The notes under the pieces: model-generated | What the model was told of the DNA's origin: nothing | Seen by the model: the letters and a program-made list of their open reading frames with translations, nothing else | Database searches by the model: none | Part shown: piece by piece, positions 9,647-21,279 of the stretch | Layout: each line of letters starts with the position of its first letter | How positions within the stretch are numbered: the first letter of the stretch is position 1 | DNA from: an uncultured delta proteobacterium | GTDB taxonomy: Bacteria > Desulfobacterota > Desulfobulbia > Desulfobulbales > Desulfocapsaceae | Assembly (NCBI GenBank): GCA_903875445.1 | Contig: CAIQWD010000072.1 | Coordinates: 1-64,000 of the forward strand | Direction of reading: 5' to 3' | Length of the DNA stretch: 64,000 bases | Position numbers and translations under genes: made by a program

Positions 9647-10786
9647 ATGAAATGTTTGTTCATTTTTGGTAGTATTTTTATATTGTTCTTCACTAGTCTT
9701 TCTGGGTGTTCTGATAACAAAGTTCGCAAAAAAGCGGACCCAGGTCTTAAAGAAGATGATATTATTCTTAAAGAAAATGTTTATTTTGACAAAAAGAGGA
9801 ATTTGCCATTAAATGGCGAAGTAAAGATATACGATAATTATAAGGTTTTGATTTCTGAGTCTTCATATAAGAATGGGAAAAAAGACGGTGTTCAGAAGGA
9901 ATATTATGAATCTGGAAAATTGAAAATGGAAAACCCATTCAATGACGGAAAAGAAAATGGTGTAAAAAAAGAATATTATGGAATTGGTGAGTTAAAGAAT
10001 GAAACTCCATTCGTTGATGGAAAAAAGAATGGAGTTCAGATTAAATACACTGGATCAGGGGAAATTGATACTGAAACTCCTTTCAACGATGGGAAAGAAA
10101 ATGGTGTAAAAAAACATTATGATGAATCTGGGAGAATTGATACTGAAACTCCATTTGTTGATGGAAAAGAACATGGTGTAAAAAAAGAATATTATGAATC
10201 TGGAAAATTGAAAACGGAAACCCCATTTAACGATGGGAATGAAAATGGTATCGAGAAAAGTTATTATACATCAGGAAAATTGAAAATGGAAATCCCATTC
10301 AACGATGGGAAAGTGAATGGCCTAAAAAAACAAGATTATGAATCTGGAAAAATAAAAACGGAAATCCCATTCAAGGTTGGGAAAGAGAATGGTGTAAAAA
10401 AAGAATATTATGAGTCTGGAAAAATAAAAACGGAAATCCCATTCAAGGACGGGAAAGAGAATGGCCTAAAGAAACAATATGATGAATCTGGAAAAATAGT
10501 TCAAGAAACAACTTATAAAGATGTCGAAAAGTCGAAAATAGATAATAGTTCAACGGAAATTGCGGCAAAGGCTGAAAATGTTGTTTATCAAAGCACTCAC
10601 GCAAGCCAGAGATCTTGTTTTGTTGAAATGGAGGGGGTTTTACAAGATATGTCAAGAGATAGTAAAGTGATGAGAACTCTTGATGAACCAAACCATAAGG
10701 CTGCTATAATTGTTTATTTGGGTAAACCTGCAACTGTTACTTGTAAAGACGGAAAATTGACAATTACTGTGTATCCAACAAAATAA
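9647..10786 (+). CDS. Lipoprotein with nine MORN-like repeats (YwqK-type)
   Basis: A 379-residue lipoprotein: signal peptide ending TSLSGC, then a short linker, then nine repeats of 24 residues (about residues 75-290) of the form DGKENGVKKEYYESGKLKTE, then a globular tail (about 300-379) with two cysteines (RSCFVEME and VTCKDG). The repeat is the MORN-variant found in proteins called YwqK-family antitoxin components, where tyrosine-glycine hairpins stack into a beta-sheet. The name says little about real function. No toxin-like partner is seen next to it. The tail is not part of the repeat family and could be the working domain. Surface exposure or periplasmic location is expected from the lipobox. 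Confidence 0.7.
   Translation: MKCLFIFGSIFILFFTSLSGCSDNKVRKKADPGLKEDDIILKENVYFDKKRNLPLNGEVKIYDNYKVLISESSYKNGKKDGVQKEYYESGKLKMENPFNDGKENGVKKEYYGIGELKNETPFVDGKKNGVQIKYTGSGEIDTETPFNDGKENGVKKHYDESGRIDTETPFVDGKEHGVKKEYYESGKLKTETPFNDGNENGIEKSYYTSGKLKMEIPFNDGKVNGLKKQDYESGKIKTEIPFKVGKENGVKKEYYESGKIKTEIPFKDGKENGLKKQYDESGKIVQETTYKDVEKSKIDNSSTEIAAKAENVVYQSTHASQRSCFVEMEGVLQDMSRDSKVMRTLDEPNHKAAIIVYLGKPATVTCKDGKLTITVYPTK
9866..10516 (+). repeat. Nine tandem 72-bp coding repeats
   Basis: Nine in-frame copies of a 72-bp unit encode the MORN-like array of the lipoprotein. Some copies are nearly identical at DNA level (for example those around 10345-10390 and 10417-10460), which points to recent expansion or gene conversion and to likely length variation between strains. 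Confidence 0.8.
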
Positions 10787-11137: not shown

Positions 11138-11214
11138 TGGTACGCCCGGTAGGATTCGAACCTACGACCTACGGCTTAGAAGGCCGTTGCTCTATCCAGC
11201 TGAGCTACGAGCGC
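11138..11214 (-). tRNA. tRNA-Arg (anticodon UCU)
   Basis: A complete 77-nt cloverleaf on the minus strand: acceptor GCGCTCG pairing with CGGGCGT, D-arm GCTC...GAGC, anticodon stem ACGGC/GCCGT with loop CTTCTAA (anticodon UCU at 11180-11178), T-arm GTAGG-TTCGAAT-CCTAC, and an encoded ACCA end. It reads AGA codons. Its 3' end faces the accessory block at 1-11 kb, the usual orientation when an element has integrated into a tRNA gene. Confidence 0.95.
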
Positions 11215-11294: not shown

Positions 11295-13625
11295 TTACTC
11301 GATATCGCGCACCCTTTTCCAGACCGGGCCGTTCACCGTATCGATGATGACGATCCCTTTTCTCGCCAACTCCGCGCGGGCTTCATCGGCAGCCTGCCAA
11401 TCTTTCTTGACCCTCGCCTGTTCCCGACGCTGGATCAAGGCATTCACATCCGGGGCAAGCGGGCAGCCCTGCAGTCGAAAGACATTCAAAACCTCGTTCA
11501 TCTTGCCGAGGGTTTCGAGAATATAGTTCTTTTGGTCATGATCAAGATTATTGACCTGGAGGATGGGATAGACCTTGCGCATAAAATTATAGATCGCTCC
11601 CATCCCCTTGGAGACGTTCAGATCGTCATCCATCGCCGCAAAAAACTGCTCCTCCATCGCCGTGACAAAGGCGGTCACCTCCGGGTGCGGGCGACCGGAG
11701 GGCAGGCAGTTCAGCTTGCAGGTGAATTCATCGAGACGCCTGAGGGCGGTACGGACATTGTCCAGGCGCTTGAAGGAAAAATTGAGCGGTTTGCGATAAT
11801 GCACCGAGAGCAGCATAAAACGGATCTCCCGTCCGGTATAGCCGCGGGCCAGGAGTTCCTTGAGAGTGACGTTGTTGCCGGCATCGACGGACATGTTCTT
11901 GCCGTCGACCAACACCAGTTCCGAGTGCAGCCAGTAATTGGCCAGCGGTTTGCCGGTGAGGGCCTCGGCAATGGCGATCTCGTTCTCGTGATGGGGAAAG
12001 ATGAGATGCCTGCTGGAGGTGTGGATATCCATGGTCGGCCCGAGATTTCGGGTGGCCATGGCCGAACATTCCACATGCCAACCGGGCCGAACATTACCCC
12101 ACTGGCTTTCAAAGAAAATCCCCTTTTTCAACTCGCCCAGGGTCGATCGTTTGAGCAGGGTAAAATCGCGAGGGTTGTCCTTTTCATAGTCGTCGAGATC
12201 GACGGTTTTACCAAGCTGCATCTTGCTTAGATCAATGCCGGAAAGTCGACCGTATTTTTTGAATTTCGAGATATCAAAGTAAATAGATCCGTGTTTTTCA
12301 TAGGCATAGCCCTTGCGCAGCAGTTCCTCGGCGACCTCAATCATTGACCCAACATTCTCCGAGGCCTTGGGGTACCCCTTGGCGCGTTTTACGCCAAGCA
12401 CATCCATATCCTCCATGAAACCGGCGATGAACTCTTCGGTATAAAGTGCGAGCGGCTTACCGGCCTTTTCCGCCCCGGCGATGGTGTTGTCATCGAGATC
12501 GGTAAAGTTCATATAGGCATCCACCTGCAAGCCCTTGGCGACAAGGGCGCGGGTGATCAAATCGGAGACGATAAAACGGCGGCAGAGGGCAAGACCTGCA
12601 ACTTCAAAGGCGGTCGGACCACAGGAATAAAAGGTGGCCTGCCCCTCTTTCTGGGGCAGAAACACCTCTTTTTTCTTGCTCATGGTATTGAAAAACCACA
12701 ACTGTTTTTTCTTCTCCTCGGTCTTTTTCGGAGGAGTAAAAAGCGGCGTGCTGAGATAGCGCTCGCCGCCGTCCGGAAGAATGACCACTACAAGGCCACT
12801 GGTAAGCTCCCTGGCATATTCGATGGCCGCCGCCATGGCACCGCCACTGCTCATGCCGACCAACAGTCCTTCCTTGCTTGCCAGCATCCTCGCCGTACTG
12901 AAGGCGTTGTTGTCGTCGACCTGAACAATCTTATCGGGTACCGATTTATCGAAAATCCCGGGCTTATACGATTCCTTCATGTTTTTCAGGCCCTGGATCT
13001 TGTGATCGAGATGCGGCTCGACCGCGATAACCTTGACATGCGGCTGAAATTCATGGAACCAGGCACAGAGTCCCATGATCGTCCCCGAAGTGCCGAGGGT
13101 CGCCACCACATGGGTGACCCTGCCGTCCGTCTGCTGCCAGATCTCCGGGGCGGTGTTGCGGTAATGGGCGCGCCAATTAGCCTCGTTATTATATTGATCG
13201 GTAAGAAAATAACGGTCGGGAAACTCGCGAATCATGAGGTAGGATTTTTCGATTGCCCCGTCCGTCGCCCGGGACGCCGGGGTAAGGAGGATCTCGGCCC
13301 CGTAGGCCTGCATGATCTTGCGGCGTTCGATGCTGGCCGACTCCGGCATAACCAGCAGACAGCGATAGCCTTTGGCTGCGCAGACCATGGCCAGACCGAT
13401 CCCGGTATTGCCGCTGGTTGCCTCAAGAACGATTTTATCCTTGGTCAGCGCGCCGCTGGCCTCGCCCCCTTCGATCATGGAAAGGGCAATGCGTTCCTTC
13501 ACCGAGCCACCCGGATTGCACGATTCCAACTTGCCGAAAATCGTTACCGTCTCACTTTTGAAGAGTCGGTTAATCCTGATGAGGGGGGTGTTGCCTATAG
13601 CACTTAAAACATTTTCATGTAACAT
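11295..13625 (-). CDS. cysK: Cysteine synthase fused to a CysRS-like domain lacking catalytic motifs
   Basis: A 776-residue fusion. Residues 1-300 are an O-acetylserine sulfhydrylase-type cysteine synthase: the PLP lysine in NPGGSVKER is K43, and SGNTG, GTSGT and MSSGGA bind substrate and phosphate. It makes cysteine from O-acetylserine and sulfide. After a Lys-rich linker, residues 325-776 follow the whole class I cysteinyl-tRNA synthetase fold: SCGPT, NFTDLDDNTI, GWHVECSAM, FPHHENE, DDDLNVSKG. The zinc ligands are kept (C335, C520, H545, E549). The HIGH motif is replaced by GLAL (344-347) and KMSKS by NMSVD (577-581). The second half therefore probably does not charge tRNA by the usual mechanism; it may bind cysteine or another ligand. 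A separate true cysS should exist elsewhere. It lies 60 bases after the dciA-like gene on the same strand. Confidence 0.85.
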   Translation of the reverse strand: MLHENVLSAIGNTPLIRINRLFKSETVTIFGKLESCNPGGSVKERIALSMIEGGEASGALTKDKIVLEATSGNTGIGLAMVCAAKGYRCLLVMPESASIERRKIMQAYGAEILLTPASRATDGAIEKSYLMIREFPDRYFLTDQYNNEANWRAHYRNTAPEIWQQTDGRVTHVVATLGTSGTIMGLCAWFHEFQPHVKVIAVEPHLDHKIQGLKNMKESYKPGIFDKSVPDKIVQVDDNNAFSTARMLASKEGLLVGMSSGGAMAAAIEYARELTSGLVVVILPDGGERYLSTPLFTPPKKTEEKKKQLWFFNTMSKKKEVFLPQKEGQATFYSCGPTAFEVAGLALCRRFIVSDLITRALVAKGLQVDAYMNFTDLDDNTIAGAEKAGKPLALYTEEFIAGFMEDMDVLGVKRAKGYPKASENVGSMIEVAEELLRKGYAYEKHGSIYFDISKFKKYGRLSGIDLSKMQLGKTVDLDDYEKDNPRDFTLLKRSTLGELKKGIFFESQWGNVRPGWHVECSAMATRNLGPTMDIHTSSRHLIFPHHENEIAIAEALTGKPLANYWLHSELVLVDGKNMSVDAGNNVTLKELLARGYTGREIRFMLLSVHYRKPLNFSFKRLDNVRTALRRLDEFTCKLNCLPSGRPHPEVTAFVTAMEEQFFAAMDDDLNVSKGMGAIYNFMRKVYPILQVNNLDHDQKNYILETLGKMNEVLNVFRLQGCPLAPDVNALIQRREQARVKKDWQAADEARAELARKGIVIIDTVNGPVWKRVRDIE

Positions 13626-13685: not shown

Positions 13686-14174
13686 TTATTTGGTTGTTCT
13701 TTTACATGCCTCGGCAAGATACCAGAACTGCATGAGAGCTTCCCGACATTTTTCATCGGAAATGCATTCCACCTGCCGTTGAAAGGCGGCAACTTTTTCC
13801 GCGTTGGGCCGGACAAAGCTCACCATCGGCCCTGGTTTCTCATATTTTTTAAAGACATCGCCCTTCGGCAGGACCATTTTTACATCTTTAATGCTGGTCA
13901 GTTTCAAGCAGCGATTCAGGTTGTCCACGAGTTCCATTTTGGCAAACTGGAACTGCTGCAGCCAGGATGAATTTTCGACCTCAAGCCACAACACTCCCCG
14001 CTCGATTTTTTGCGGCTGGGCATGTTCCCGAAAGTCTTCGCCGACAATTTCCCGCCATTTGACAAAGATGGAATGCTGATCGAGCTGCTTTTCCCAACCC
14101 ATGTTCCGCGAAAGCCAGGGGAGAACAGCGGAAATTGTGTTTTGCTGATCACTTTTCTTTTTTGCTTTAGCCAT
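13686..14174 (-). CDS. DciA-like (DUF721) protein
   Basis: A 162-residue basic protein of the DUF721/DciA type. DciA assists loading of the replicative helicase DnaB in bacteria without DnaC; whether this divergent copy does so is not shown. The core is recognisable as ISAVLPWLSRNMGWEKQLDQ, then FVKWREIVGEDFREHAQP and VLWLEVENSSWLQQFQF. A C-terminal extension (about 95-162) is less conserved. I start at the ATG at 14174 (MAKAKKKSD). The frame is open further upstream to 14306, but that part runs across the glnA terminator. It is followed on the same strand by the cysteine synthase fusion. Confidence 0.7.
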   Translation of the reverse strand: MAKAKKKSDQQNTISAVLPWLSRNMGWEKQLDQHSIFVKWREIVGEDFREHAQPQKIERGVLWLEVENSSWLQQFQFAKMELVDNLNRCLKLTSIKDVKMVLPKGDVFKKYEKPGPMVSFVRPNAEKVAAFQRQVECISDEKCREALMQFWYLAEACKRTTK

Positions 14175-14262
14175 TTTCAGAGTTGCCTGTTGCGGAGATT
14201 GTTCCTCTTTCTTTACTGACAAAAAAGGCAATTGGCAAGCTCTGCCGAAAAACCCGGAAACG

Positions 14263-14296
14263 AAAAAACCCGCATCCCTCGAACGAGGAATGCGGG
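14263..14296 (-). terminator. Terminator of glnA
   Basis: On the minus strand a 12-bp GC-rich stem (14285-14296 with 14269-14280, one mismatch) and a 4-nt loop are followed by six T (14268-14263). It lies 27 bases after the glnA stop codon. Confidence 0.9.
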
Positions 14297-14322
14297 CCGA
14301 TTGCAAGAAAGCAATACGTCGC

Positions 14323-15651
14323 TTAATAAACGCTCAGATACTCATCGAGTTCCCATTCGGTTACCGCCGTGCGGAATCGATCCCACTCTTTTTCCTTGGC
14401 CTCGACATACTTCTGAAAGATATGTTCGCCGAGGGTCGGAATAGCGATGGCATTGGTTTTCAGTTCTTCGACGGCCTCGATGAGACTTGCCGGCATGACG
14501 GCAATCCCCTCTTCCTTCATTTCCGCGGCGGTCATTTTGAAGATGTCGCGCTTTACCTCGGGTGGAGGAGTAAGGTTGTTTTTCACCCCGTCAAGCCCGG
14601 AATTGAGCATCATGGCGAAAGCGAGATACGGATTGCAGGTCGGGTCCGGGCAACGCACCTCGGTCCTCGTCGACAGGCCGCGGGCCGCCGGGATACGGAT
14701 AAGGGCGGAACGGTTGGAAGCAGACCAGGCACAATAAACCGGCGCCTCATAACCGGGGACCAAGCGCTTGTAGGAGTTTACCAGCGGATTGGTGACCGCC
14801 GAAAACGCCCGGGCGTTTTTCAAAACACCGGCGATGTAGGAATAAGCGATTTTCGACAATTTCAATGGGTCTTTTTCGTCGAAGAAGGCATTGGTGCCAT
14901 CGGCGTTAAAGAGCGACTGATTAGTGTGCATGCCGGAACCGTTTATACCGAAAATCGGCTTCGGCATAAAGGTTGCGTACAAATTGTATTTGGAAGCAAT
15001 CGACTTGACAACCCATTTAAAGGTCACGGTGTTGTCGGCTGCGGTCAGGGCATCGGCATATTTGAAGTTGATCTCATGCTGGCCCTCGGCCACCTCGTGA
15101 TGCGAGGCTTCGATCTCAAAACCCATCTTCTCAAGGGTCTCGATGATTTCCCGACGACAGTCATTGCCCTTATCCTCCGGATCAAGAGAGAAATAGCCGG
15201 CGACATCGCTCGTTACGGTAGTAGGCAAACCATCCTCGTCTTTTTCAAAGAGGAAAAACTCGGCCTCGGTGCCGACGTTCATGGTGTATCCGAGCTTCTT
15301 GGCCTCGGCCAAAACCCGCTTGAGATTGACCCGTGGACAGCCGGCAAACGGAGTACCATCCGACTTGTAGACATCGCAGATAATACGCGCCGCGGCAATA
15401 CCGGTCTTATTGCGCCATGGCAAAATAGTGAAGGTGTTATAGTCGGGTTTCAGGTACATATCCGATTCATTGATGCGCACAAAGCCATCGATGGAAGACC
15501 CGTCAAACATCATCTCGCCATCCAGCGCTTTTTCTATCTGGCTTTTGGGAATCGCAACATTCTTCATAAATCCGAAGATATCGACAAATTGGAGGCGAAA
15601 AAATTGAATATTCTCGTCCTCGATAATTTGCATTATTTCTTCTCTGGTCAT
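14323..15651 (-). CDS. glnA: Glutamine synthetase, type I, alpha subclass
   Basis: A 442-residue ATP-dependent ammonia-assimilating enzyme (glutamate + NH3 to glutamine), expected to form a dodecamer in the cytoplasm. Landmarks: [10 protein letters not shown] near 48-57, the metal/glutamate segment [21 protein letters not shown], and [15 protein letters not shown]. The length and the C-terminal part ([18 protein letters not shown]) are those of the alpha type found in Bacillus, Thermotoga and many anaerobes. The tyrosine loop that GlnE adenylylates in beta-type enzymes is absent (the region reads [14 protein letters not shown]). Control is therefore likely by transcription, feedback or GlnB rather than adenylylation. 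GGAG precedes the ATG. It stands in a cluster with glnN, glnD, glnB and amtB, with a glnE relic directly upstream. Confidence 0.95.
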
Positions 15652-15815
15652 TGTAACAGTCTCCTTTTCTCTTCTATTATTTTATTCTTGCGAAGTACCG
15701 CTGCAAGTGGACAAACAATAGAGCCGCTTGCATTATCCGGGGTGACCCATCTTATACTACGGGCCGCTACTTGTCTTTCGAAAATATGCCGACGGCAAAT
15801 AATGGCCGGAGGTCA

Positions 15816-16166
15816 TCAGACGGCCCGTCCGAAGACCTCCATCCACAGTTCTTCGATGATTTTTCGCACATCGGCGATCTCGCCTTCCGGGAGCACGGCC
15901 TGCTCGCCGTTCAAGCGCAGCCGGTGCTGCATGCGCCGCAGGGTACGATAGCCGTCGGCGGCAGCATGGGCGTTGCCGAGGACAAGGTATTGGATGATGA
16001 ACTCAAAGTCGATCAAGCCGCCCACATCGTCCTTGACATTGAACCAGCCGTCCCGGTGCGAGCGGCTGTCGAGCAATCTGCGGCGTATCGCCATGACCTC
16101 TTCGCCAAGTTTCTGGCGGTCCCGCGGTCTGCGGAGGATTATTGCCATACCCAACCACTGCAAATT
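15816..16166 (-). pseudogene. glnE: Relic of glnE (glutamine synthetase adenylyltransferase)
   Basis: An open frame on the minus strand (open from 16316) reads, over its last 116 codons, as the extreme C-terminus of GlnE: EEVMAIRRRLLDSRSHRDGW, then VKDDVGGLIDFEFIIQYLVL and a final helical part with RTLRRMQHRLRLNGEQ. Full GlnE has about 950 residues with two nucleotidyltransferase domains, so both catalytic domains are missing. About 40 residues also seem deleted between LGNAHA and ADGYRTL. The part of the frame before 16166 is read through the glnN terminator and is not GlnE-like. Loss of glnE fits the alpha-type GlnA next door. A functional mini-protein cannot be excluded but is unlikely. 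Confidence 0.7.
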
Positions 16167-16210
16167 TCGGAGACGTGCGATGGGGCTGAAAACTTTGTCT
16201 ATCAGCCAGA

Positions 16211-16245
16211 AAACAAAAAGGCCGCCCCTCTTGCAAGGGGCGGCC
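16211..16245 (-). terminator. Terminator of glnN
   Basis: On the minus strand a 10-bp GC stem (16236-16245 with 16220-16229) and short loop lead into TTTTTGTTT (16219-16211). It starts about 30 bases after the glnN stop codon. Confidence 0.9.
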
Positions 16246-16273
16246 TTGGTTACGTCTGAGACGTCTTTCAGGC

Positions 16274-18454
16274 TTAACGGATGAACAACATTTCCTGATA
16301 GGAAGGCAGTGGCCAAAGGTCGTCAGCCACGACTTTTTCCAGGGCATCGGCGTAGCCGCGCACCGCCAGCATGGCGGGCAGCACCTTCTCGCACATGTAC
16401 TTGGCGTGGGTCAGGGTGTCGCCGCCTTCGTGGGCGATCAGCTTCTCCAGCTTGTCCACCTCGGTCTGCATGGCGCGCAGATTGGCGGTGACATCTTCAA
16501 GGGTGGCCATCTTGAAGTCGTGGCCGATGGCCTTGAGGTTGGCGCAGGTCTCGGCAAGTTGACCCTGATAACGCATAGCGGCCGGGAAAATGACAGTGCG
16601 GGCCATGCGGATCACTAGGTTGGCTTCGGTGAGCACAGTCTTGACGTACTGCTCCAGGTAGATCTCCTGGCGGCTCTTCAGTTCGGCCTCGGAAAGCACA
16701 CCGTACTTGGTGAAGAGAGCCACTACATCCTTGCTGGTAAGCACGGGCAGGGCCTCGGGAGAGGTCTTCAGGTTGGGCAGCCCGCGCTTCTTGGCCTCTT
16801 TATGCCAGGCCTCGGAGTAGCCGTCACCATTGAAGACGATGGCGTCGTGCTCCTTCATGATCTTCTGGAGCAGCTTCTGTACGCCTTCGTTGAACTGGGT
16901 CTTGTTCACACGGCCAAGCTTTTCCAATTCGGTGGCAATGTAGTCCAGGGACTCGGCCATTATCGTGTTCAGGGCCACCTGGGCGCCGGCGATGGAGTGG
17001 GAGGAACCCACGGCGCGGAACTCAAAGCGGTTGCCGGTGAAGGCAAATGGGCTGGTGCGATTGCGGTCGCCCGGGTCCATGGGCAGTGGCGGCAAGGTAT
17101 CGACGCCGATGTTCATAACGCCCTTCTGTTTCGAACCCTTGACCTCGCCCTTCTTGATCTGCTCAAACACGTCGGTCAACTGCTCGCCCAGGTAGGCGCT
17201 CATGATGGCCGGCGGGGCCTCGTTGGCGCCCAGGCGGTGGTCGTTGGAGGCGGAGGCCACTGTGGCGCGCAGCAGGGCAGAGTATTTATGCAGGGCGCGG
17301 ATGGCGGCAGAGCAGAATACCAGGAACTGGGCATTGGAATGGGGATTGTCGCCCGGATCAAACAGGCTGCCCAACTCCGCGTTGCCGATAGAATAATTCA
17401 GATGTTTGCCGGAACCGTTTATGCCGGCGAAAGGCTTCTCGTGCAGCAGGCATATCATGCCGTAGCGTTTGGCCACGGAGCGCAGAATTGTCATGACCAT
17501 CTGGTTATGGTCGGTGGCCAGGTTGCCCTGCTCGTAGATGGGGGCGAGTTCGAACTGGGCGGGGGCCACTTCGTTGTGGCGGGTCTTAACCGGTACGCCC
17601 AGCTTGAAGAGCTCACGCTCGACTTCCATCATGAAGGAGAGCACGCGGCGGTTGATTACGCCAAAGTACTGGTCCTCGAACTCCTGGCCCTTGGCGGAAG
17701 GAGCGCCGAACAGGGAGCGCCCGGCAATGAGCATGTCGGGACGGGAGAACACGAAGTTGCGGTCGACCAGGAAGTATTCCTGCTCGGGGCCGGCGAAGGA
17801 GCCGACGGGCAGCTTGGTGTTGACGCCGAAGAGACTGAGCACGCGCTTGGCCTGCTTGTTCAGGGCCTGCTGGGAGCGCAGCAGCGGGGTCTTCTTGTCG
17901 AGAGCCTCACCGGTCCAGGAGACGAAGGCGGTGGGGATGCAGAGGAAGGTACCGTTTGGATTCTCAAGGATGTAGGCCGGGCTGGTGACGTCCCAAGCGG
18001 TATAGCCGCGGGCTTCGAAGGTAGCGCGCAGTCCGCCGGAGGGGAAGCTGGAGGCATCAGGCTCGCCCTGGATGAGCATCTTGCCGGAGAACTCGGCCAT
18101 GGCGCCGCCGTCGCCGTCGGGAACCAGGAAGGCGTCGTGCTTTTCAGCGGTGAGGCCGGTCAGGGGGTAGAAGACATGGGTGAAATGGGTAGCACCCTTC
18201 TCGATGGCCCAGTCCTTCATGGCGTTGGCGACCACGTCGGCAAGGGAGGCGTCAAGTTTCTCGGCGAAGGCGATGGTGTTCTTCAACGACTTATAGACAT
18301 GCTTGGGCAGACGTTCTTTCATGACCTTGTCACTGAAAACGTTGGATCCAAATATGTCGGTAGGCTTGGTTTCACTGAAATTCAAGGGGGAATGGGACGG
18401 TTTATAGTTGATGATTGCCGAAATGGCATTCAAACGGGCCTTGATTCCACTCAT
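16274..18454 (-). CDS. glnN: Glutamine synthetase, type III
   Basis: A 726-residue type III glutamine synthetase, the large form known from Bacteroides, cyanobacteria and some anaerobes. The N-terminal domain is followed by family signatures: [41 protein letters not shown], the glutamate/ATP segment [33 protein letters not shown], and the C-terminal [11 protein letters not shown]. It makes glutamine from glutamate and ammonia and, in other organisms, is induced by nitrogen starvation. GGAGAG precedes the ATG. The gene has its own terminator. Its codons are noticeably richer in G and C at third positions than those of the neighbours, which may mean a separate origin. An inverted TACAA motif lies about 70 bases upstream of the start codon. 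Confidence 0.95.
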
Positions 18455-18524
18455 AGTGCACTCTCCATAATTGATTAAGGATAACGGTTATAGCAGGTAC
18501 ATAATTGCTAAATCAAATAATGAC

Positions 18525-18536
18525 TACAAAATTGTA
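18525..18536. promoter_or_regulatory. Operator-like motif upstream of glnN
   Basis: TACAAAATTGTA (18525-18536), about 70 bases before the glnN start codon, is the exact reverse complement of TACAATTTTGTA at 23237-23248 upstream of amtB. A partial copy lies at 23315-23325. A common nitrogen regulator is possible; none is named by the sequence. Confidence 0.4.
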
Positions 18537-18702
18537 AAACATACGACGTTTCTTTTCAACCCCGAAATTGCGAAAAGCACAGCCCGCATGTCTAAAAAGA
18601 ATAACATTTCTGACATTTTCTGCAACAGGCAAATCAAATTTCATTACATGTTTGTCATTTTTTCAGCGGAATACAAAGCTGGCAAGCGGCTTGATTTCCC
18701 AA

Positions 18703-21279
18703 TTATTTGCCCGCCCGGCTGATCGAATGCAGGATCCCCTGGGTGACCTCCAGCCGAAAGTCCTCATCGATCAGTTTTTGGCCCTGGGAATCGAGCACAT
18801 AAAAAACATCTATCAACTGCTCGACCTCGGTGGCGATGTAGGCCTTATGGATATTCAAACCGAAATCGGCCATGGACTGGGTAATGTGATAGAGTTGCCC
18901 GGGCAGGTCTGCCGCATATACCTCGATGACGGAGTAGTTCTCCGAACTTTTGTTATCGATGATCACCTTGGAAGCAATCTCGCCAACCGCTTTTGCCCGC
19001 CGATTATAGCTGTGCGACAGTTTTCGGTACAGCCGGTGGCTGAGCCCCATCCGGTGTTCGATGGCCAGATCGAGCTGCTCATTCAGCAAGCCCCAATCTT
19101 TTTCCGCAAAACTGAGGCCATCGGTCGAACGGACCTCGATAACATCGACGACAGTGCCATCGGCCCAGGTAAAAATCTGCGCCCTGACGACGGTGAGGCT
19201 GTTCAGCGTCATCACTCCGCAGATTTTAGCGAGGAGACCGGGCCGGTCGACGGTCATAATAAGCAACTGCCAGGCATCTTCCGCCTCTTCGGCGACAATG
19301 AGCGCTCTCTGGCGCAGAAGCTGATAGTTATCGCGCTGGGTCAACACATGTTTGACAACACTCTCCGGCGAGAAGGAAAGAATATAGTCGGCTCCCAAGG
19401 TATCGATGTCAACCCGAAGGTCGGAGGCCTCTTTCAGCAGTACTCGCACCTGCTCGCGCAGCCATTCAACACCCTGTTCCTCATGGGCCGTCACATCATG
19501 CACGCCGTGCCGCCCGACGTCAAGATACGGATACACCTTCAGATACAGTTCTTCAAGCAGGACCCCCTTCCAATCGCTCCAGGCCGATGGACCGGTTGCC
19601 TTCGAATCGGCAACAGAGAGCAGATACAGCATGCTGAGCCGGTTGAGAGTGCCTATGGTTTCGGCACATCTTTTTATGAAAACGCCGTCGTTGAGATCGC
19701 GCCGCAGGGCATTCTCCGGCATAAAGAGATGATAACGAACAAGAAAGACCAGGGCCGCGCACTCCTTTTCGGAAAGCAGAAACCGTTCCCCGATCCGCGC
19801 CACCAGGCCTGCGCCTTCAAGGGAATGATCCCGCCCGGAACCCTTGCCGATATCGTGCAGCAGTGCGGCAAAATACAAGACCCGCATGCTCCGGACATTC
19901 TGGGCGACCACTGTCCAGGTCGCAACCAGCTTCTGCACTTCCACCACCGCCTGCAGGGAGTGCCGATCAACCGTATAAATATGATACAAATCGTGCTGCG
20001 CAAGGGTTGAAATCTTTGCGAATTCCGGAATACAGGCGATGAGCACCCCGGTTTCGAGCATCGTCTCAAGAACCAGAGAGATATCCTTTGCTTCCATGAG
20101 AAGAGCGAGGAAGGTCTTCGCCAACCGTGGTGAAGAGCGCACCTTCTCGGTGATAAGTTCGACCGATCCGGCAATCATCTTCCGGGTCCTGTGGTGCAGT
20201 GGCAAGCCGGTCCGGGCCATGGCGAGAAACACTCGGATGAGGGTCTGCGGCTTGGCTTCCAGCTGCGCTCGCGAAGCGGTTAAATGAACCCGCCCCATTT
20301 TCACCTCGATCCCCGCCTCTATAACCTTATCGGCAACCATCCCGCCTCTGCCGGCCAGGCCGAGCACCTCGTCGACATGGTCGAAAAACAGATCGGTTAT
20401 GACACTTATTTTTTGCAGGGCGACATACACATCACGCATGAAATGTTCGACACCGAGAATGCTCTTCTGCGTCTTATAGCCAAAGGCCGCGGCCACATCG
20501 CCCTGTTGTTCGAAATAAAGTTGGTCGTTTTTACGTTTGCTGAAAAAATGCATAAATGTCCGCAATCTGACCAGCATGTCCCGGGCAACGAGAAAATCCT
20601 TTTTCTCGTCCTCGATAAGCAGCCCGGCTTCTTCAATGCCTGCCAAGCCGTGCAAGCCGAACACCATCCTGGCTGTCCACATCATCGCCTGAATATCGCG
20701 CATGCCGCCCCGCCCCTCTTTGATATGGGGTTCAAGCAGATAACTATGGCTGCCGAAGCGTTCTCGCCGACTCTGACGATGGCGCTTCATCTTCTCGACG
20801 AAATCCTCCCGCTGCCCCTCGACAAAGCGCCGGTGATAGGCGGTGAGAAGTTCGTCGTAGAGTTCGGTCGAGCCATGGATCAGGCGGGCGTCGAGCAGTG
20901 CCACCAGGAAAAAATAATCCTTTTCCGCCTGGGCAAGCGACTCCTCAACGGTTCGCACCCCATGGCCGATCTCAAGACCTGTATCCCAGAGCGGGTAGAG
21001 AACCGCGTCGGTTATGCGCTCGATCCGGTTTCTCATTTCCGGGCGAAAAAGAATCATCAGATCGATGTCGGAAAAGGGGAACAGTTCCCGCCGGCCATAG
21101 CCGCCCAGGGCGACAAGAGCGACATCCTCCAGGCAAACCTCGACATCCGACTGCCGACAACAGTCGATGATGTACTCATCGACCGCCCGACTATGGCTGC
21201 GCAGCTCTTCGTCACCGCTTCTCGCCTTGGCCCAGATCTCCTCAAGGGCTTTTCGCTGTGCGCGAAAGGCGCTGATCAT
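18703..21279 (-). CDS. glnD: [Protein-PII] uridylyltransferase / uridylyl-removing enzyme
   Basis: An 858-residue cytoplasmic glutamine sensor that attaches or removes UMP on PII protein. Domains in order: nucleotidyltransferase with GGYGRRELFPFSDIDLMI at about 59-76 (the G-G and D-x-D catalytic motifs), the GlnD helical region, an HD hydrolase domain with LLHDIGKGSGRDHSLEG (uridylyl removal), and two C-terminal ACT domains (RPGLLAKICGVM and LPGQLYHITQSMADFGLNIH) that bind glutamine. The length is in the usual range. It starts three bases after the glnB stop, so both are made from one transcript. With no intact glnE nearby, the modified PII must act on other targets such as AmtB or transcription. 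Confidence 0.95.
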   Translation of the reverse strand: MISAFRAQRKALEEIWAKARSGDEELRSHSRAVDEYIIDCCRQSDVEVCLEDVALVALGGYGRRELFPFSDIDLMILFRPEMRNRIERITDAVLYPLWDTGLEIGHGVRTVEESLAQAEKDYFFLVALLDARLIHGSTELYDELLTAYHRRFVEGQREDFVEKMKRHRQSRRERFGSHSYLLEPHIKEGRGGMRDIQAMMWTARMVFGLHGLAGIEEAGLLIEDEKKDFLVARDMLVRLRTFMHFFSKRKNDQLYFEQQGDVAAAFGYKTQKSILGVEHFMRDVYVALQKISVITDLFFDHVDEVLGLAGRGGMVADKVIEAGIEVKMGRVHLTASRAQLEAKPQTLIRVFLAMARTGLPLHHRTRKMIAGSVELITEKVRSSPRLAKTFLALLMEAKDISLVLETMLETGVLIACIPEFAKISTLAQHDLYHIYTVDRHSLQAVVEVQKLVATWTVVAQNVRSMRVLYFAALLHDIGKGSGRDHSLEGAGLVARIGERFLLSEKECAALVFLVRYHLFMPENALRRDLNDGVFIKRCAETIGTLNRLSMLYLLSVADSKATGPSAWSDWKGVLLEELYLKVYPYLDVGRHGVHDVTAHEEQGVEWLREQVRVLLKEASDLRVDIDTLGADYILSFSPESVVKHVLTQRDNYQLLRQRALIVAEEAEDAWQLLIMTVDRPGLLAKICGVMTLNSLTVVRAQIFTWADGTVVDVIEVRSTDGLSFAEKDWGLLNEQLDLAIEHRMGLSHRLYRKLSHSYNRRAKAVGEIASKVIIDNKSSENYSVIEVYAADLPGQLYHITQSMADFGLNIHKAYIATEVEQLIDVFYVLDSQGQKLIDEDFRLEVTQGILHSISRAGK

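Follow-up and report, generated by a model that had tools for sequence, protein, structure and literature searches.

GCN2, a eukaryotic kinase with a HisRS-like domain, uses a pseudo-synthetase as a tRNA sensor, and HisZ, likewise related to HisRS, belongs to a synthetase class other than that of cysteinyl-tRNA synthetase (CysRS). In the available part of PMC9437257, HisZ, a paralogue of HisRS, performs no adenylation and regulates HisG, and CysRS* of Desulfobacterales is encoded by a second CysRS-type gene, has no anticodon domain and charges SelC*. In the excerpts available on MshC, it is a CysRS paralogue outside translation that activates cysteine with ATP. Neither MshC nor CysRS*, two relatives of CysRS, reads the GCA anticodon, and neither has the anticodon domain, MshC judging by where its match to the structural model described below ends. 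Here we describe a cysteine synthase fused to a CysRS-like half, encoded by an uncultured delta proteobacterium of the Desulfocapsaceae (assembly GCA_903875445.1) in a window of 64,000 nucleotides, which is the whole stretch analyzed (contig CAIQWD010000072.1, positions 1 to 64,000). Alignments across the fusion family indicate that the catalytic signatures of CysRS have decayed and that residues predicted to read the tRNA-Cys anticodon have been retained. The reading we favor, with confidence a little short of even, is that of a pyridoxal 5'-phosphate (PLP)-dependent cysteine synthase, probably using O-phosphoserine (OPS), that carries a tRNA-Cys-binding, probably regulatory pseudo-CysRS working like HisZ or GCN2. 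Such a protein would resemble HisZ in being a non-adenylating synthetase-like protein attached to an amino-acid-making enzyme (PMC9437257, available part), but it concerns another amino acid, forms one chain and retains a tRNA-reading domain. With GCN2 it would share tRNA sensing by a pseudo-synthetase, although GCN2 is a eukaryotic kinase and its domain is HisRS-like. Our literature search, which left most subscription literature outside its reach, found no paper on a cysteine synthase/CysRS-like fusion.

The fusion is a single open reading frame (ORF) with an ATG start and no internal stops, and Pfam and NCBIfam domains bear out the original prediction that a cysteine synthase is joined to a CysRS fold (Table 1). 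NCBIfam cysKM matches residues 8-296 (359.2 bits, cut-off 344.15) and cysS (TIGR00435) residues 311-771 (369.7 bits, cut-off 340), the CysRS-like half being full-length and including the DALR and anticodon-binding domains. Annotators should be warned that, given this score above the cysS equivalog cut-off, the protein could automatically be named cysteine--tRNA ligase, a name that is probably wrong. An AlphaFold2 model (mean predicted local distance difference test score, pLDDT, 86.7; predicted template modeling score, pTM, 0.61, so that the relative placement of the two halves is unreliable) matched CysRS structure 8qhp (Z 51.2, root mean square deviation (rmsd) 1.4, 400 aligned residues), the CysRS-tRNA-Cys complex 1u0b (residues 308-772, Z 50.1, rmsd 3.9, 446 aligned) and cysteine synthase 2v03 (Z 37.9, rmsd 2.0, 289 aligned); a common fold is by itself no proof of function.

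Table 1. Features of the fusion gene and of its surroundings in the window (residues are those of the fusion protein).
Feature	Position	Strand	Basis
Cysteine synthase/CysRS-like fusion, 776 aa	11295..13625	-	ORF call, Pfam, NCBIfam
CysM-like PLP domain, residues 7-296	12738..13607	-	Pfam (PALP, 7-285), NCBIfam; model matches cysteine synthase structures
CysRS-like catalytic domain, residues 324-624	11754..12656	-	Pfam tRNA-synt_1e (PF01406), E 7.8e-84
Zinc ligand C335	12621..12623	-	Alignment
HIGH position, GLAL, residues 344-347	12585..12596	-	Alignment
Arg350, fusion-specific invariant (113/113), adjoins HIGH position in sequence	12576..12578	-	Alignment
LKxG insertion, residues 499-502, fusion-specific	12120..12131	-	Alignment, 113 fusions vs 82 unfused CysRS
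Zinc ligand C520	12066-12068	-	Alignment
Zinc ligand H545	11991-11993	-	Alignment
Zinc ligand E549	11979-11981	-	Alignment
KMSKS position, NMSVD, residues 577-581	11883..11897	-	Alignment
DALR_2 domain, residues 660-716	11478..11648	-	Pfam
CysS_C anticodon-binding domain, residues 723-762; R734, R738, W743, D747, D762	11340..11459	-	Pfam, alignment
tRNA-Arg(TCT), directly downstream of fusion; one tRNA found in window	11138-11214	-
DciA-like gene, glutamine synthetase, type III glutamine synthetase, GlnD-like gene, upstream of fusion	13686-21279	-
MORN_2 repeat protein	9647-10786	+

Like bacterial CysRS (E. coli CysS; 1li5, 1u0b), the window protein has the fold to its C-terminus, the anticodon-reading residues and the four zinc ligands; unlike it, the fusion lacks HIGH, GxD and KMSKS, has W491, W505, G512 and Q552 replaced, carries an LKxG insertion and a cysteine synthase half, and occurs beside a separate canonical CysRS. 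With CysM/O-phosphoserine sulfhydrylase (Mycobacterium tuberculosis CysM, 3dki) and CysK it shares the PLP lysine and PLP-site residues, and with M. tuberculosis CysM also an L[RK]NM loop, but these enzymes have no C-terminal pseudo-CysRS. We rejected an identity with MshC given the family score (187.8 bits against a cut-off of 485.1) and the anticodon domain: MshC works without tRNA, and its structure aligns to our model only up to residue 717, short of that domain. An identity with CysRS* was rejected as well, since the fusion retains the anticodon domain and the only tRNA found in the window is a tRNA-Arg; the available text of PMC9437257 mentions no fusion for CysRS*.

We compared 113 distinct full-length fusions, each with a match that begins before residue 60 and extends past residue 700, with 82 unfused CysRS, which were mostly best matches to the window protein and thus biased towards it. 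The full signature set (HxG[HN], GxD, KMxK and four zinc ligands) was present in 76 of the 82 unfused CysRS and in none of the fusions. The original prediction had placed the zinc ligands and the altered HIGH and KMSKS positions of the window protein exactly; it had overlooked that G-x-D, which we take to be the ATP-ribose motif of CysRS, is replaced by S-R-H (538-540), and that W491, W505, G512 and Q552, invariant in unfused CysRS, are all replaced. Family-wide, W491, G512 and Q552 were altered in 113/113 fusions and W505 was retained in 3%, the first His of HIGH persisted in 39/113, and the second KMSKS lysine (K580) was Lys in 4/113 and Arg in 29/113. These losses make it very probable that the CysRS-like half of the window protein is unable to charge tRNA normally, in agreement with the original prediction that it cannot activate cysteine in the usual way, and we infer that normal amino-acid activation was lost in the fusion at or soon after the fusion event.

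That the CysRS-like half retains an enzymatic activity, as a persulfide synthase or as a slow or specialized ligase that activates cysteine, is quite improbable. In 16/113 fusions the site does remain nearly canonical (HxG, GxD, KMSR/K and all four zinc ligands), and CysRS reportedly uses PLP bound to the lysines of KIIK and KMSK to make cysteine persulfide (PMC10655014, available part). However, the complete signature is absent throughout, K580 is rarely Lys, three otherwise invariant residues are altered in every fusion, and the lysine motifs of this CARS type read NTIA and NMSV in the window protein, all four PLP lysines occurring together in 0/113 fusions. The persulfide chemistry proposed in the original prediction is thus rejected, at least through the published lysine mechanism.

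The anticodon-binding domain has a different history. In E. coli CysRS, R423, R427, W432 and D436 contact G34 of tRNA-Cys (PMC12684709, available part, citing Hauenstein 2004). By alignment these correspond to R734, R738, W743 and D747, and in the 113 fusions R734 and D747 are invariant, R738 is Arg in 110 and Lys in three, and W743 is aromatic in all. The same holds for the 17 fusions that keep two or fewer zinc ligands (R734, R738 and D747 in 17/17; W743 as Trp in 12 and Phe in five). D762, equivalent to E. coli D451, which we take to be a tRNA contact, is likewise present in 113/113 and in all 17 zinc-poor fusions. Unfused CysRS have 61 positions that are at least 97% invariant; all zinc-poor fusions (17/17) retain 28 of these, including 4/4 in the anticodon domain, against a mean survival of 0.54 over 56 catalytic-domain positions (Mann-Whitney p 0.02, a weak test given that one group comprises four positions and the sequences are related). 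The family therefore amounts to a natural experiment: within one domain, decay struck the catalytic and zinc sites repeatedly and spared the anticodon-reading residues.

With amino-acid activation lost and the fold and anticodon-reading residues still in place, the pseudo-CysRS would bind tRNA-Cys, and the bound tRNA would let cysteine synthesis follow how much charged tRNA-Cys the cell has, the synthase being switched on, for instance, as uncharged tRNA accumulates. In its boldest form, a phylum-wide synthase gated by its own tRNA, in which the pseudo-synthetase reads the tRNA-Cys anticodon and adjusts OPS-dependent synthesis to charging, we advance this only tentatively and consider it rather doubtful. 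If true, tRNA-Cys would set the cysteine supply within one polypeptide in many Desulfobacterota-type bacteria. Translation and the making of an amino acid would then be directly coupled in an old lineage of anaerobes, and the fusion would be a bacterial, single-chain counterpart of the logic of HisZ and GCN2. The conservation of the anticodon residues would also fit channeling, whereby the pseudo-CysRS would bind tRNA-Cys or the canonical CysRS and place synthesis at its point of use, with the synthase itself unregulated. The presence of at least two CysRS-type matches (PF01406, E ≤ 1e-30, counted irrespective of canonical status) in each of 146 of the 156 fusion genomes would suit channeling too, as would the frequent finding of the fusion as the only synthase in genomes without cysE (see below), but free cysteine also supplies thiols and Fe-S clusters; we regard channeling as unlikely.

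The catalytic domain also gained conserved residues. R350 and R493 are each invariant in 113/113 fusions, and the LKxG insertion (L in 112, K, i.e. K500, in 112 and G in 113 of 113) is a gap in all 82 unfused CysRS. The basic ones among these new residues hint at a negatively charged ligand, which might be OPS, phosphate or the end of the tRNA. The new residues could also point to a CysRS-like half that is structural, or that senses a small molecule in the former active site, be it cysteine, OPS or a different anion, and in which tRNA plays no role, and the retention of G336, R349, D355, D376, H545 and N548 in 17/17 zinc-poor fusions would be consistent with such a sensor. All four zinc ligands persist in 77/113 fusions, the window protein included, where the zinc-based sensing or holding of cysteine put forward in the original prediction is possible; given the repeated loss of ligands, with two or fewer left in 17/113, it cannot be the shared function of the family. 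A sensor of this kind would leave unexplained why the G34-reading residues are fixed in 110-113 of 113 fusions while zinc and ATP signatures decay, and it seems to us an improbable account of the domain as a whole.

Regarding the synthase half, K43, which we take to be the PLP Schiff-base lysine, is present in 113/113 fusions, as are numerous further synthase positions. Serine acetyltransferase (TIGR01172) exceeded its family cut-off in 75 of 395 genomes sampled across the phylum (4/156 with the fusion, 71/239 without), a weaker match only was found in 76/156 and 116/239, respectively, and no cysE was detected at E ≤ 1e-25 in 76/156 and 52/239, all of these being counts over related, not independent, genomes. 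Among 71 of the 76 cysE-less fusion genomes (G169 and four of low completeness omitted), 67 had no second CysK/M-like protein (E ≤ 1e-55; exceptions G229, G231, G328 and G411), whereas 72 of 74 cysE-bearing fusion genomes (of 80, six of low completeness omitted) had one (exceptions G033 and G243). Hence cysE and free cysK are as a rule present or absent together, and the fusion can occur in the absence of both. In nine single-contig genomes (G022, G132, G142, G168, G202, G203, G302, G312 and G424) the fusion is the sole CysK/M-like protein found. Given that the fusion is the only synthase found in genomes without cysE, OPS is the simplest inference for its substrate, and the synthase half is probably an O-phosphoserine sulfhydrylase.

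M. tuberculosis CysM uses OPS (PMC12910592, available part), and in the partial source at hand Campylobacter jejuni CysM uses O-acetylserine (OAS) and not OPS, so that likeness to CysM is no proof of OPS use. The fusions share K214-N215 (113/113), a gap in 9/10 free synthases, with K214 lying in an LKNM loop where M. tuberculosis CysM has LRNM; Arg220 of that enzyme is presumably a phosphate-binding residue. A probable OPS-using synthase joined to a reader of tRNA-Cys resembles the tRNA-dependent logic of cysteine synthesis in the SepRS/SepCysS pathway (PMC8762117, available part), and the synthase could conceivably convert phosphoseryl-tRNA-Cys held by the CysRS-like half. However, SepRS (TIGR00470, E ≤ 1e-10) was found in 0/68 fusion genomes searched, the window's own included, for which we rejected a pathway of the SepRS type, and nearly all fusion genomes have a second CysRS-type gene; tRNA-dependent synthesis on the fusion is very improbable.

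Several points weigh against a regulatory, tRNA-Cys-binding and OPS-using fusion. Some of the 16 fusions with nearly canonical sites could still activate cysteine slowly. The requirement for a match beyond residue 700 barred any fusion without an anticodon domain from the counts. Of nine incomplete matches that we re-read, eight are cut short by the end of a contig; in the ninth, from the closed genome G022 (L234, G022:C1:2736300-2739800), the frame shifts near residue 595, with the remainder (594-772, 49% identity, anticodon domain included) in another frame, which is either a sequencing error or a real break in the only CysK/M-like protein found in that genome. Residues of the anticodon domain might be kept for fold stability instead. 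A scan of 55 loci found no tRNA-Cys gene next to the fusion, and no neighbor is shared across 45 loci with flanks, the commonest cluster occurring in 7/45. Regarding the substrate, the case for OPS is built on missing cysE and an unrelated serine acetyltransferase would be invisible to the TIGR01172 search; cysE is also missing from 52/239 genomes without the fusion, and the window's own genome carries it. Finally, a protein deposited as O-acetylserine sulfhydrylase B (2jc3 alignment) also has Arg at the K214 position, and this loop therefore cannot separate OPS from OAS users.

The search of sequenced genomes that the original prediction had called for showed the fusion to be widespread. It was found in 15/18 genomes of our first sample, the window's own counted, and in 9/11 other genomes of the genus at 81-93% identity, the two without it being 84% and 56% complete. 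In the order, 86/96 genomes carried it (matches better than 1e-100, some incomplete), and in the class 174/192 at E ≤ 1e-92, a threshold that admits G522, whose match (1.8e-93) is no better than that of a plain CysRS. In the phylum sample, the 156 fusion genomes, a few with incomplete genes (e.g., G169, G215 and G398), were compiled by hand at E ≤ 1e-130, and matches from 1e-92 to about 1e-101 were counted as plain CysRS; in the order and class samples only the nine incomplete matches mentioned above were re-read. The best 80 of 593 relatives included seven fusions in named records (Desulfopila, Desulfocapsa, Desulfobacteraceae, Desulfobacter, Desulfobacula and two Deltaproteobacteria) and none outside the phylum, although no search was aimed at other phyla. 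Viral contigs held 13 loci matching within the CysRS half and one PALP relative.

In a tree of 78 of the 113 fusions (less than 80% identical) and 26 of 48 selected CysRS, built by a quick method with the HIGH and KMSKS columns excluded and the zinc columns included, all fusions fell on one side of a branch with an approximate likelihood ratio support (SH-aLRT) of 100, with at least seven changes at the HIGH His and at least nine in the zinc set. The simplest explanation for a single branch with multiple changes is one fusion event followed by repeated loss, and the fusion is apparently an old family with one origin. Among 12 same-genus fusions, the ratio of nonsynonymous to synonymous substitution rates (dN/dS) was 0.050 for the synthase, 0.049 for the CysRS catalytic part and 0.070 for the DALR and anticodon part; synonymous sites were near saturation, and each domain offered 17-26 usable pairs out of 66. 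The CysRS-like domain is under strong purifying selection. Given this catalytic dN/dS of about 0.05 and the presence in 9/11 same-genus genomes, the fusion is not a product of chance or sequencing error.

A second, canonical cysS, for which the original prediction had proposed to look, is present on another contig of the window's genome (L001, G000:C101:40006-40893; such handles for genomes, contigs and loci are ours), with HIGH and KMSKS intact, and a free cysK (C90:18945-19850) adjoins a cysE gene (C90:19925-20416; 161.2 bits, under the family cut-off of 210.65). This genome therefore has a CysRS and a cysteine synthase besides the fusion, and the refuting condition named in the original prediction, absence of any other cysS, does not hold. 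Ten of the 156 fusion genomes showed one CysRS-type match. In five of these (G144, G311, G372, G391 and G481) the fusion domain was too diverged for the 1e-30 threshold and a separate CysRS was present (in G144, a stop-containing piece), G169 had pieces of both fusion and CysRS, and in G110, G181, G315 and G446, assemblies of 220-570 contigs each, no other CysRS was seen. Too diverged for PF01406 at 1e-30 is also the CysRS-like half of the f54 clade (L196-L200), in which H545 is the sole remaining zinc ligand and the anticodon residues are intact. Four CysRS-type matches were found in G328 and three in G124, G161, G235, G363, G368, G371, G390 and G462; in some genomes the extra matches may be CysRS* of Desulfobacterales, or fragments.

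G017 (C204 and C76; 91% complete, 260 contigs) encodes a pair of complete fusions, each sharing about 66% identity with that of the window. In G011, a degraded copy with stops (C27:16808-17224, 71% identity to residues 678-756) lies beside the intact fusion L013 and is a partial duplication of the fusion's C-terminal part. Operon context was rejected as a clue to function, given that neighbors are not conserved. The genes upstream of the fusion in the window lie on the same strand (Table 1), and the tRNA-Arg(TCT) gene is also found downstream of the fusion in 4/7 other same-genus loci scanned, as well as at L015 and L016.

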